A program made the translations under genes and the position numbers. From Kribbella kalugense (lineage in GTDB: Bacteria > Actinomycetota > Actinomycetes > Propionibacteriales > Kribbellaceae), in contig NZ_SODF01000002.1 of the NCBI RefSeq assembly GCF_004365875.1, positions 930,001-994,000 of the forward strand: a stretch of 64,000 nucleotides of DNA, read 5' to 3'. The notes beneath the pieces are model-generated. The model did not search any database. It worked only from the letters and a program-made list of their open reading frames with translations, and was not told the DNA's origin. Shown here piece by piece: positions 51,893-64,000 of the stretch. Within the stretch, counting starts at the first letter, position 1. Each line of letters begins with the position of its first letter.

Positions 51893-52270
51893 ATGACTTC
51901 CCGCGTGCGAACCGTGACGTTCGATACCCACGACCCTTACGAGCTGGCCGGTTTCTGGCTGCAGGTCCTGAAGGCCGAGCGTCCCGACGACGACAAGCCC
52001 GGCGACCCGTACGCCGCCGTGGTGACGGACTCCGTCACGCTGCTGTTCGAGCAGAACAACGACGAGAAGGCCGCCAAGAACCGCGTCCACCTCGACCTCG
52101 AACCGGACGGTACCCGGGACGAAGAGGTCGCCTGGCTCCTCACCCTCGGCGCCACCATCGCCCACGACCACCGCAACCCCGACGGCACCGGCTTCGTCGT
52201 CATGCACGACCCCGAAGCCAACGAATTCTGCGTCCTCCGAAGCGCCGCCGAACGAGCCGCCACCAGCTGA
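51893..52270 (+). CDS. VOC (glyoxalase-like) family protein
   Basis: The 125-residue protein is a single-domain glyoxalase-like VOC protein: VRTVTFDTHDPYELAGFWLQ at the start and MHDPEANEFCVL at the end, with RVHLDLEPDG between. It is probably a metal-dependent enzyme or binding protein of unknown substrate. TAGTCT, which includes the stop codon of the methyltransferase gene, ends six bases before the ATG, so it may have its own leaderless transcript. Confidence 0.85.
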   Translation: MTSRVRTVTFDTHDPYELAGFWLQVLKAERPDDDKPGDPYAAVVTDSVTLLFEQNNDEKAAKNRVHLDLEPDGTRDEEVAWLLTLGATIAHDHRNPDGTGFVVMHDPEANEFCVLRSAAERAATS

Positions 52271-52359
52271 TCGAGGAGTACAGCGGACGGCCCCGCGTGC
52301 TAGGCACCCGCTCCCCTCGTCGCGGTTGCAACGCGCGCCCCACCCACCCTCCGGCGGCC

Positions 52360-52684
52360 GCCGGCGCATCCTTTCCGGCTAACGCCGGGTTGTTGCGGGC
52401 TGCCGCCGCGGTTTGCGCTGCCGCGCGGGCGGAGGCTTGGCCGGCGCCCGTCGGAAGCTGACTGCGGTCTTGGGTGATCCTGGACGCGCTGGGCCTGAAC
52501 GCCTCCGCCGGACAACACCCCCTTTCCGGAAGAAAATTGCCCGATACCGCCTAAAAAGCTCCGGAAACCGAGCCACCCGCGGGCGGCAGCCCGCAACGCC
52601 CGGCGCAGCCGGAACGGGGCGGCCGGAACCGGGCGGCCGTGCCCGCAGCACCCGGCGGTAGCCGGAAGGGATGCACCGGCGCTG
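52360..52684. repeat. Nested inverted-repeat element, about 325 bp
   Basis: The gap 52271-52789 contains no gene. Its left arm at 52360-52400 is repeated inverted at 52641-52680 (about 36 of 41 bases match). A second inverted copy of the arm's inner part lies at 52582-52613. Shared core is CGCCGGGTTGTTGCGGGCTG. Related copies lie at 62504-62540 and 63058-63123. The middle includes an A-rich patch near 52530-52560. No ORF or transposase is seen. Confidence 0.7.
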
Positions 52685-52789
52685 AGCCGGGGCGGGTGGA
52701 GCCGGCGTGTTGCCGCGTCGAGGAGCGCAGCGACGAGAGAGCGGCTGCGTAGGCGCGTGGGTCGACCACATCCCCCGCGACCACGGCTG

Positions 52790-53176
52790 CTACAGGTCGT
52801 CGGCGTAGGGGGTTTGGCCGGTGAAGGTTAGGTGCCAGTCGGTGGATTTCGCGGAGGCGGTGAGGTCGTAGCCCTCGCGGCGGGCGGTTAGTTGGTGGTG
52901 GCCTTCGGTGACGTCGGCGAGGGTGACTTTCCAGCCGCGGGACTCGAGGGTTTCGGCCGCGAAGCTGATCTGAGCTTCGGGGTCGGGAGTGGTGGTCGGG
53001 TCGCCGGTTTCGACGGTGATCGTGCAGACGGACTCGTGGCCGCGGTCGTCGGAGAGGGCGCTCTGGTCCACTGGGCCGAGGTCCTGCGTCACCGTTGGGG
53101 TCTGGTCCGGTACGACGATTGCCGCCACCATGAGGAGTTCCGAACGCAGGTAGTTGCGGGCTTCGGTCAGCGTCAC
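52790..53176 (-). CDS. Small conserved protein, paralog of the next gene
   Basis: This 128-residue protein of unknown function aligns throughout with the product at 53233-53604. They share LRSELL-VAA-VVPDQ, a VCxITVETG strand, an E-T-L-E-S-R-G-W helix end and a final TDWHLTFTGQTP. No signal peptide or helix is clear. I chose the GTG at 53176 (MTLTEARNYLRSEL) because it matches the paralog's N-terminus. Upstream in-frame codons encode a copy of the hydrolase tail, so this is the outcome of a tandem duplication. Confidence 0.72.
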   Translation of the reverse strand: MTLTEARNYLRSELLMVAAIVVPDQTPTVTQDLGPVDQSALSDDRGHESVCTITVETGDPTTTPDPEAQISFAAETLESRGWKVTLADVTEGHHQLTARREGYDLTASAKSTDWHLTFTGQTPYADDL

Positions 53177-53232
53177 AACCCCGTCATACACCTTGCCATC
53201 AAGTCTTGCGAGGGACCGCAGCGAGTCGTCGG

Positions 53233-53604
53233 TCAGGAGACGAGGGGTGTCTCGCCGGTGAAGGTTATCCGCCAATCCGTCGCCCACGCGTGGACCGCGA
53301 CATCGAAACCGTCGCGGGTGGCGGCGACCCGGTAGTGGCCGTTCTCCGGGGGCGCGACCTCGACCGTCCATCCTCTGGCGCGGAGCGCTTCGGCCGCGGC
53401 CTGGACGGCGGCGGCCGGGTCCGGGGACTTCGGGTTGCCGGTCTCGACGGTGATCCGGCAGACGGTGGCGGGTCCGCGGCCGTCGAACAGTACGCCGGGA
53501 TTCACCGGCCCCGGGTCGTGTGTGACGACTGCCCGCTGGTCAGGTACGACGACCGCCGCAACGGCCAGCAGTTCGCTCCGGAGAAACTCCCGCCCGCCCG
53601 TCAT
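53233..53604 (-). CDS. Small conserved protein linked to DUF1023-type hydrolase
   Basis: This 123-residue protein of unknown function starts MTGGREFLRSELLAVAAVVV and ends TDWRITFTGETPLVS. The ATG overlaps the hydrolase stop (ATGA), so the two are translationally coupled and likely interact or act together. It has one cysteine and an alpha/beta pattern. The paralog downstream suggests dosage or specificity variation, as seen with immunity genes, but there is no direct evidence for that role. Confidence 0.75.
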   Translation of the reverse strand: MTGGREFLRSELLAVAAVVVPDQRAVVTHDPGPVNPGVLFDGRGPATVCRITVETGNPKSPDPAAAVQAAAEALRARGWTVEVAPPENGHYRVAATRDGFDVAVHAWATDWRITFTGETPLVS

Positions 53605-56449: not shown

Positions 56450-56590
56450 CCTTCGAAAGGCTGCTGGTGCCCGAGCGTCCTGACTTACGAGCCGAAGCTC
56501 GCTCACAGTGGCGCGGCCGTGCCGGACTCTCACCGGCTTCCCTCATGGCACCGCAGGTTGTCTCCCGAACCGTAGAGGCCGGGCCGGAAC
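56450..56590 (-). ncRNA. Cobalamin riboswitch upstream of cbtB
   Basis: The minus strand carries the ordered cobalamin-riboswitch elements: GGTGCC, GGAAGCCGGTGAGAGTCCGG, GCCACTGTGA, and the B12-box-like AAGTCAGGACGCTCGG, ending in GGGCACC. It sits 35-170 bases upstream of cbtB. Boundaries are approximate. Binding of adenosylcobalamin should reduce translation or transcription of cbtBA. Confidence 0.9.
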
Positions 56591-56679
56591 CCGGTCAACG
56601 CGGCACGGCGCGGCGGTGATCTATCCCACCCGCCGGATACCCTGCTGCGCCGCGACGCCGTCGCATCTACTCTGAGCAG

Positions 56680-61960: not shown

Positions 61961-62470
61961 GTGACGACAGAGTTCCGGGTGGACCCGCCCACCGCCGCCG
62001 ACGAGCGGACGCTCCTGCAGGGATTCCTCGACTTCCACCGCGGCACCCTGCTCTGGAAGGTCTCCGGCCTGACCGGCTCGCAACTGGTCCAACGCGCCGT
62101 CGACCCGTCCAGCATGTCGCTGATCGGACTGGTCCGGCACCTGAGCGAGGTCGAGAAGTACTGGTTCCACCGGGCTCTCGCCGGCCACGACTCGCCGCCT
62201 AAGTTCTGGACGGGCGAACACCCGGACGGCGACTTCGACCTCGCCGATCCTGAGCTGGCCGAGCAGGACGTCGAAGACTTCCGCCAGCTGGTGAAGACCT
62301 CCGACACGCTGGCCGCGGGCTACTCGCTGGACGACACGTTCACCCGCCCCGGCTACGAAGGCGCGTACTCGGTCCGCTACCTCTACATCCACATGATCGA
62401 GGAATACGCCCGCCACAACGGCCACGCCGACCTCCTCCGCGAACGCCTCGACGGCCAGACGGGCGAGTAG
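61961..62470 (+). CDS. DinB-fold protein (DUF664)
   Basis: The 169-residue four-helix protein resembles the product at 30830-31333. It has GLVRHLSEVEKYWFHRAL and IHMIEEYARHNGHADLL, supplying three histidines for a metal. No enzymatic role is assigned. The GTG is preceded at six bases by TAGGTT, the same arrangement as in its paralog, suggesting a leaderless mRNA. Confidence 0.86.
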   Translation: MTTEFRVDPPTAADERTLLQGFLDFHRGTLLWKVSGLTGSQLVQRAVDPSSMSLIGLVRHLSEVEKYWFHRALAGHDSPPKFWTGEHPDGDFDLADPELAEQDVEDFRQLVKTSDTLAAGYSLDDTFTRPGYEGAYSVRYLYIHMIEEYARHNGHADLLRERLDGQTGE

Positions 62471-62519
62471 TCCGCCCCACGCGTGCGCACCCGCCCGCCC
62501 CGGCGAGCTATCGCCGGGT

Positions 62520-63075
62520 GTTGCGGGCTGGCGCCCGCGGTTGCTCGCTCGGCTCGTGAGTGACTGCGAGGCGGGCGTCTGCTCACCGAGCTGGCGTGGT
62601 GGGAGGAGCTGTGGTCGGGAGTCGACCGTGATTTGCGGACCGCCACGCATGCAGAAGTCGCGCGGGGGCGCGGACCTGAGCGTGCGCACTCGCCGTGATG
62701 TGGGGTTCTGCATGCATGGCGGTCCGCCTCGCCGCAGCACGCACGCCCAGTTCGCGCTGGTGTGCGAAGACGTGCGGCCGGGTGTGATGCGAAGCGAGCT
62801 GTGGTGGGGAGGACCTGTGGTCGGGAGTCGACCCGGATTTGCGGACCGCCACGCATGCAGAAGTCGCGCGGGCGCGCCGACCTGAGCGTGCGCACCCGTC
62901 GCGACCCAGGGTTCTGCATGCATGGCGGTCCGCCCAGCCGTAGCGCGCAGGCCCAGTTCGCGCACGCGCGCGGGCACCGACCACAGCTCCTCCCGACCAC
63001 GATCGACCGTGAGCAGACGCCGGCCCGCAGTCACTCGCGAGCGGAGCGAGCAGAAGGCGGGCGGCAGCCCGCAAG
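62520..63075. repeat. Element of about 555 bp with long terminal inverted repeats
   Basis: The gap 62471-63218 has no convincing gene. Its left arm (about 62520-62618) is repeated inverted at about 62974-63075. Most of about 95 positions match, including TTGCGGGCTG, GAGTGACTGCG, GGCGTCTGCTCAC and GGGAGGAGCTGTGGTC. Between the arms are two tandem 206-bp units. All frames on both strands are open in places but carry no signature of coding. Confidence 0.75.
62611..62966. repeat. Two tandem 206-bp units, each with a 22-bp inverted repeat
   Basis: The block from 62611 to about 62760 repeats from 62817 to about 62966 with a period of exactly 206 bp. Each unit contains a 22-bp arm, GCGGACCGCCACGCATGCAG plus AA (62635-62656; 62841-62862). 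Its inverted partner lies at 62706-62727 or 62912-62933, with one mismatch and 49-nt spacers. The palindromic arms are better conserved than the spacers. Confidence 0.8.
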
Positions 63076-63123
63076 TCGTCGGCGCTAGCCGACAAGGCCC
63101 GGCGTCAGCCGGAAGGTATGCGC
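63058..63123. repeat. Dispersed repeat arm with internal insertion
   Basis: On the minus strand this reads GCGCATACCTTCCGGCTGAC, then GCCGGGCC and, after an inserted 22-bp small palindrome at about 63074-63095, CTTGCGGGCTGCCGCC. It matches the left arm at 52365-52407. It abuts the right end of the 555-bp element. Confidence 0.65.
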
Positions 63124-63218
63124 GGGCGCTAGCCCCCGAGGGCGAGCGGGTGCGCGCGTGGCGGGCGGGCCGAGGGGCGGAGCGGCGAGGGGCGGCTGCG
63201 GAGCATGCGGCGGAGGAA

Positions 63219-63884
63219 CTACTTGATTGAGCGGATCAGGCCGACTAGATCGTTCACTACGCCTCGTACGCCTGGGATGCGGGTGAGGCGGAGGAGGCGG
63301 TCGACGAGCGGTACTACGCGATCGATCAAAGCCTTTGTGCGGCGGACGTCGTCGCTTTGGTCGTGGACCCAGAACAAAACAACGCCCATCTGCACGAGCC
63401 AAAGGAGCTCAGGCAACTCCGTCCGCAGGTCGGCGGGAAGCTTCAGGTCGGACCCCTCGACCACTTGGCGGAAGATCTCCACACTCGCGTCCCGGGCCGG
63501 GCGGGACTCGTCGCTGAAGGGTGACAGCGGGCTCTTCGGATCCGCTGCCGTCTTGAAGAACGTGCCGGCGAACTCGTGGTACGGCGCGGCCACTTCGAGC
63601 CAAATCCGCAGTACCCCGGCCAGCCGTGGCACGAACCGCTTCTCCGAAGCAAGAATCGGCTCGACCGCGACACGATGCTGGTCCTGGAGCAGGTCGTAGT
63701 ACGCCTGCATCAGGTGGTCCTTGGAGCCGTAGTAGTAGTACGCGTTCCCGACCGAAACGCCGGCCTCGGTCGCGATCGCGCGCATGGTCGTCTTGCCGTA
63801 CCCCTGCTCCCGGAACAGCCGCAGCGCGGTCGACAGGATCAGCTCGCGGGTCTGCTCACCCTTCGTGGTCGCACCGTCCGTCAC
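63219..63884 (-). CDS. TetR family regulator
   Basis: The 221-residue protein has the TetR DNA-binding domain (TRELILSTALRLFREQGYGK, then ATEAGVSVGNAYYYYGSKDH) and a larger C-terminal ligand domain. The frame extends to a GTG at 63908. I prefer the GTG at 63884, because TACGCT ends seven bases upstream in the leaderless arrangement seen elsewhere in the window. Target and ligand unknown. Confidence 0.85.
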   Translation of the reverse strand: MTDGATTKGEQTRELILSTALRLFREQGYGKTTMRAIATEAGVSVGNAYYYYGSKDHLMQAYYDLLQDQHRVAVEPILASEKRFVPRLAGVLRIWLEVAAPYHEFAGTFFKTAADPKSPLSPFSDESRPARDASVEIFRQVVEGSDLKLPADLRTELPELLWLVQMGVVLFWVHDQSDDVRRTKALIDRVVPLVDRLLRLTRIPGVRGVVNDLVGLIRSIK

Positions 63885-64000
63885 ATCCGTCAGCGTAGTC
63901 ACCTCCACTCAACCGCCGCAGTCCTGCGGCTGCCTGCACCATTGCTCGCGCGACCGGCCGCATCGCTGGACTCGCCAGCCGTACGGCGGTGTGCCTGTGC
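63856..64000 (-). CDS. Possible 3' end of a gene running in from the right
   Basis: A minus-strand frame is open from the window edge to a TGA at 63858-63856. It reads AVRLASPAMRPVARAMVQAA and then AGLRRLSGGDYADGCDG, overlapping the TetR start by 29 bases. Its composition looks coding but no family is recognised, so this is tentative. Confidence 0.3.
   Translation of the reverse strand, partial: HRHTAVRLASPAMRPVARAMVQAAAGLRRLSGGDYADGCDGRCDHEG

Follow-up and report, generated by a model that had tools for sequence, protein, structure and literature searches.

What is the inverted block that lies between a DinB-fold gene and a TetR gene in Kribbella kalugense, and which part of it is the repeated unit? 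In the 64-kb stretch of DNA analysed here (the window), the original prediction recognised one intergenic element of ~555 bp with ~95-bp terminal inverted repeats and no transposase. It likened this element to a MITE or a foldback element, and named a structured RNA and an array of protein-binding sites as other options. Our results indicate that the block is almost certainly a composite, in which the 3' tails of two convergent genes enclose a tandem duplication with two palindromic dyads.

Anatomy of the inverted block

The block, its neighbours and a second pair of tails in the window comprise the following features:

52326–52427, plus strand: left member of the second tail pair, behind the glyoxalase-like gene 51893–52270 (PF18029); nhmmer E 3e-14
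52568–52713, minus strand: right member of the second tail pair, downstream of frame 52790–53371 (minus strand); nhmmer E 2.2e-16
61961–62470, plus strand: mycothiol-S-transferase/DinB_2 gene, left convergent neighbour (PF04978, E 1.6e-45; PF12867, E 5.9e-08)
62485–62618, plus strand: left 3' tail (the predicted left arm), with GGCTNNCGCC hairpins and then a TGCTCGCT..GTGAGTGACTGC block; sense to the left gene
62601–62806, plus strand: first copy of the 206-bp tandem unit, with the 166-nt direct repeat
62635–62727, no strand: dyad 1, 93 bp, with 22-nt arms, a 49-nt loop and TGAGCG near the centre; 64 bits
62807–62972, plus strand: second, shorter copy of the 206-bp tandem unit
62841–62933, no strand: dyad 2, 93 bp, arms and kernel as in dyad 1; 62 bits
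62974–63165, minus strand: right 3' tail (the predicted right arm), sense to the TetR gene
63219–63908, minus strand: TetR-family regulator gene, right convergent neighbour (PF00440, PF17931)

The predicted inverted arms, with their shared blocks in the right order, are present as four complementary pairs: 62521–62538/63057–63074 (94% complementary), 62542–62574/63020–63052 (88%), 62570–62586/63009–63025 (94%) and 62601–62618/62977–62994 (100%). Folding of the strand, proposed as a check, gave structures far beyond those of shuffled sequences (z = −14.9; none of 100 shuffles as good). The block does not fill the whole space between the two genes, as had been claimed, because the gap extends from stop to stop over 62471–63218 (748 bp). 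No supported open frame was found inside the block. An Rfam search returned only a cobalamin riboswitch, away from the block at 56456–56598 on the minus strand (RF00174, 40.9 bits).

The interior contains a 166-nt direct repeat (62601–62766 and 62807–62972) with a spacing of 206 bp and 87% identity. Each copy of the tandem unit holds one 93-bp palindrome, and the 22-nt arms of both palindromes read GCGGACCGCCACGCATGCAGAA. No other dyad in the 64-kb window pairs 17 or more of its 20 arm positions; shuffled windows contained 0, 1 and 0 such dyads. Several repeats of a GAACTGTGGT/GAGCTGTGGTCGG motif adjoin the 3' tails, both in the window (62601–62827) and at another locus (L037).

The 95-bp ‘terminal repeats’ are the tails of two convergent genes, since tails of this family, built of GGCTNNCGCC hairpins and a TGCTCGCT-CGAGCGA block, follow genes on their own strand. 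The core of the left tail (62502–62580, plus strand; nhmmer E 3.7e-12 in 464 kb) lies 31 nt past the stop of its gene, and that of the right tail (63020–63162, minus strand; E 1e-30) 56 nt past the TetR stop. A tail profile search of 464 kb of the genome, including the window, gave six matches, which form three facing pairs 0.4–2 kb apart. All six lie behind an own-strand gene: five at 17–105 nt according to a simple gene caller, and the sixth (52568–52713) behind the minus-strand frame 52790–53371, which the caller had missed. Tails of this family were also found behind other genes, and in relatives most of the called neighbours fit this pattern, apart from cases in which the caller was weak. 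The second tail pair (52326–52713) has an interior that differs from that of the block at 62 kb. A role of the tails at transcript ends is a guess.

That the whole block is a single foldback element or MITE of ~555 bp with 95-bp terminal repeats is highly improbable. Its inverted arms are in order, and all six tails in the 464 kb form facing pairs, as such an element would have it. However, only one full-length match exists in its own genome, tails also occur singly behind same-strand genes without this interior, one facing pair is 2 kb apart with two other, unrelated genes between its members, and the interior varies between tail pairs. The likeness to miniature mobile DNA holds insofar as this DNA is repeated, non-coding and without a transposase of its own, and MITEs and bacterial foldback elements are likewise short and non-coding, with inverted ends and many copies. 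It fails insofar as the block is not one element, its interior is variable, no transposase shares its ends and target duplications are lacking: none was seen by eye around the 555-bp block, and none was found in 178 flanks of the inner dyads. The single element was accordingly rejected as the unit, and the repeated unit is the inner dyad of 82 or 93 bp.

Dispersed dyads in Kribbella

A search of its own genome (G000) with the arm, allowing up to three mismatches, gave 27 matches in each orientation, and none for the reversed control. A covariance model found ~35 dyads in this genome, mostly of exactly 82 bp, and from 0 to 45 in each of 37 other Kribbella genomes, with the maximum in G019; in these counts the hits were halved because both strands match. 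Eight of the 38 Kribbella genomes have no dyads. Arms pair face to face in 90 cases and otherwise in 4. The lengths of the 90 facing pairs concentrate at 81 bp (19), 82 bp (62), 83 bp (3) and 93 bp (4), a distribution that is partly selected, as the loci had mainly been retrieved by a model of 82 positions. The arms begin with GCGGACC, while the loops vary widely. Support for mini-hairpins inside the loop is weak and confined to the left side (z = −3.4, compared with about −1 on the right).

Many dyads hold the same place in several species, which indicates that they are old. At sites common to several species (14 pairs), identity was 85% in the arms, 63% in the loops, 71% in the adjoining non-coding DNA and 86% in the coding flanks. 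The higher conservation of the arms than of neighbouring non-coding DNA also fits a cellular role. The DinB–TetR gap provides the best contrast between presence and absence: apart from G000, it holds a dyad in G016, single and without tails, and it is short and without a dyad in G017, G019, G005, G012 and G023. Joint flank matching among the fetched loci revealed no recent clean empty site, which the original prediction had proposed to look for, and the 178 dyad flanks contained no flank consensus or insertion motif. In G029 (L114–L119), the dyads are adjoined by another palindrome that is related to them and has a TGAARCGYTTCA-like centre, which looks as if new dyads go in next to older ones; three of these loci (L117–L119) have long similar flanks in common.

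Dyads often lie close to stop codons. A stop trinucleotide lies 0–3 nt away at 73 of the 178 dyad ends, compared with 3–5 per offset further out, and in 22 of 89 dyads both ends abut stops. A crude gene caller (coding fraction 0.65) placed 45 of 89 dyads between convergent genes; in the 464-kb stretch, convergent gaps make up 38 of 158. Either insertion was targeted to sites next to stops, or copies at such sites survived selectively.

The AbiEi-DUF559 nuclease gene and its flanking dyads

Two dyads ~966 bp apart bracket one particular gene in G000, G014, G029 and G005. In G000 this gene (C1:1680423–1681301) encodes a protein of 293 aa with an AbiEi_4 winged-helix domain followed by a DUF559/MTES_1575 domain; the AbiEi N-terminal domain PF13338 matches at E 1.2e-06, and PADLOC AbiEi models match as well. 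Most homologues have dyads on both sides, and other subfamilies carry other arm sequences. With one scoring rule for all flanks and a threshold of at least 17 of 20 arm pairs, strong dyads were present in 40 of 67 upstream and 32 of 67 downstream flanks, against 3 of 420 control windows; a clear dyad is absent from about one third of the nuclease-gene flanks. Among further Kribbella nuclease genes, 16 of 19 have at least one dyad. Of 25 genes from other families of the phylum, 5 reach the threshold, and by eye several more genes in one family have matching arms on both sides.

The arms match the protein. Arm identity is 14.9/20 between the two dyads of one gene and 9.9/20 between genes. On the protein tree, arm class requires 20 changes compared with 52.8 after shuffling (0 of 200 shuffles as low), with subfamily labels based on patterns written after the flanks had been viewed. 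Copy number follows the presence of the matching gene, both for the window dyad family (p = 1.9e-6) and for CATCACAAT dyads (p = 8e-7), although these p values overstate independence because the genomes are related and the distributions of dyads and genes follow species kinship. The two families also dissociate, as G029 and G027 have only window-type dyads and G007 and G013 only CATCACAAT dyads. The genome with most dyads of the window family, G019, has a broken copy of the matching nuclease gene (L237, C2:4477878–4481551), and G012, G010, G031 and G026 have CATCACAAT dyads without a matching gene among the loci read. In G026, the copy of the nuclease gene is a fragment only (L238). We are highly confident that nuclease and dyads are genetically paired.

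The loops share a short kernel. Against an expectation of 3.2, 35 of 117 flanking loops contain TGAGCG/CGCTCA, in most cases 4 nt from the centre, and this kernel recurs in dyads with unrelated arms. All four 93-bp dyads, including both copies in the window, have the kernel near their centre. The two dyads flanking the G000 nuclease gene (L057) have very similar loops, which look as if homogenised; elsewhere loops differ widely.

Residues E183, D214, E225, H232 and D241 are invariant in all 36 nuclease sequences, a set that we take to be of the EDxHD kind, as in Vsr-like homing enzymes. This E-D-E-H-D set suggests an active nuclease, as do weak profile matches to 3hrl (E 0.009) and to 3r3p, a protein of a mobile intron (E 0.04); single-sequence structure prediction of the C-terminal domain gave a pLDDT of 36, too low to be informative. 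Known EDxHD/Vsr-like homing endonucleases (3r3p) and DUF559/MTES_1575 proteins share these residues and weak profile similarities. Unlike such homing endonucleases, the gene is free-standing, outside an intron or intein, and its product would recognise DNA through the arms of dispersed dyads.

Relatives of the AbiEi/DUF559 nuclease occur in 108 of the 118 genomes of the order searched, often in several copies, and we know of no established role for them. Two AbiEi-DUF559 genes from another actinobacterial family (L267, L268) have GAGCAGACGCAAAAGCCCCC palindromes on both sides. The gene in G014 has as neighbours a CbiX gene and a short frame that resembles ribbon-helix-helix proteins; for the latter the query was slightly misread. 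We found no paper in the open-access literature that links DUF559 or AbiEi-nucleases to palindromic repeats, nor a description there of the nuclease–dyad pairing in Kribbella and other actinobacteria.

Interpretation of the dyads

The suggestion of a structured RNA did not survive for the inner dyads, as their arms show no covariation within species. Whole-stem covariation scores were within those of shuffles (19 copies, 17 from G000), and within-species shuffles matched the observed pairing in 192 of 1000 cases; the absence of compensatory changes in both tests argues against an RNA stem. The two arms vary independently within species, yet share species-specific letters, as expected if a protein, and not the partner arm, sets the sequence. 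Hence, the arms behave like protein half-sites, and the predicted option of protein-binding sites appears to be the best fit for the inner dyads.

A terminator role, in which dyads and tails would stop transcription in both directions or form the mRNA 3' ends of convergent genes and would have spread or persisted for this purpose, is weakened by the same lack of covariation, which implies that primary sequence, not pairing, is maintained. This reading would account for the strong folds, the 73 of 178 dyad ends 0–3 nt after a stop, the 45 of 89 dyads between convergent genes and the tails behind same-strand genes, but it is decidedly unlikely given that there is no U tract and that the identity of the arms with those at the nuclease flanks is left unexplained. 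Alternatively, the gene-adjacent dyads might be autoregulatory operators as in AbiE toxin–antitoxin promoters, with the scattered copies as regulon or titration sites and nothing mobile. Promoters of AbiEi-family genes do contain 23-bp inverted repeats to which the encoded proteins bind (PMC7319586), the upstream dyad sits in the promoter region, and arms are conserved at shared sites. Yet another dyad, with the same arms, overlaps the 3' end of the gene or lies beyond it, the scattered copies are mostly behind stop codons instead of in promoters, and the nuclease residues are invariant, which makes operators alone a rather unlikely explanation. Both functions may be compatible with the nuclease–dyad explanation.

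The dyads resemble the REPINs known from Pseudomonas and its relatives (PMC3116915). Both are inverted doublets in which a short conserved sequence frames a less conserved, variable spacer, with a few fixed lengths; both are extragenic, have species-specific variants and include copies that flank the gene of a DNA-processing enzyme. An ordinary REPIN family mobilised in trans by a Y1 (RAYT) transposase is nevertheless most improbable, as a different enzyme is consistently flanked, an AbiEi-winged-helix/EDxHD nuclease instead of a Y1 HUH transposase. Y1_Tnp (PF01797) is absent from G000 and from 37 of 38 Kribbella genomes, which argues against a RAYT as the mobiliser. In addition, the arms begin with GCGG and lack the GTAG or CGTC tag of REP ends, the 22-nt arms are not themselves hairpins, and the dyads, unlike REPINs, share a central kernel.

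We consider it somewhat probable that the dyads are dispersed non-coding partners of the AbiEi-winged-helix/EDxHD nuclease, which would bind them and would have helped them to spread. Binding of the dyads by the nuclease is itself probable. For the type IV antitoxins AbiEi and Rv2827c, the binding sites are paired 23-bp inverted repeats with 3 or 13 bp between them (PMC7319586). The dyads likewise have inverted half-sites of 22 bp, 38 or 49 bp apart; in each system the longer spacing exceeds the shorter by roughly one helical turn, and the nuclease shares the N-terminal AbiEi domain. The systems differ in that the nuclease has a C-terminal nuclease domain in place of the antitoxicity domain, that no AbiEii nucleotidyltransferase toxin gene was seen next to it in the G014 locus scanned, and that dyads also occur at the 3' end of the gene and genome-wide. 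Possibly, each 22-nt arm serves as a half-site for the AbiEi-like domain, and a protein dimer bridges the dyad across its fixed length of 82 or 93 bp, so that the nuclease domains come to lie above the loop. We conjecture that cutting at the loop has let dyads copy or insert elsewhere, where the host would tolerate them mainly right behind stop codons. Spread driven by the nuclease is a tentative proposal, on which we lean towards doubt.

With similar reserve, we suggest that the dyads might represent a selfish or domesticated class of actinobacterial DNA, whose dispersed palindromes are replicated or maintained by their own AbiEi-winged-helix/EDxHD nuclease. Through the dyads, an unknown nuclease family gains predicted DNA targets, both flanking its gene and scattered genome-wide. 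If true, the system would be a second, independently evolved counterpart of REPIN/RAYT, with a homing-endonuclease-like enzyme and arms that change together with the protein, and the REPIN way of life would not be tied to Y1 transposases.
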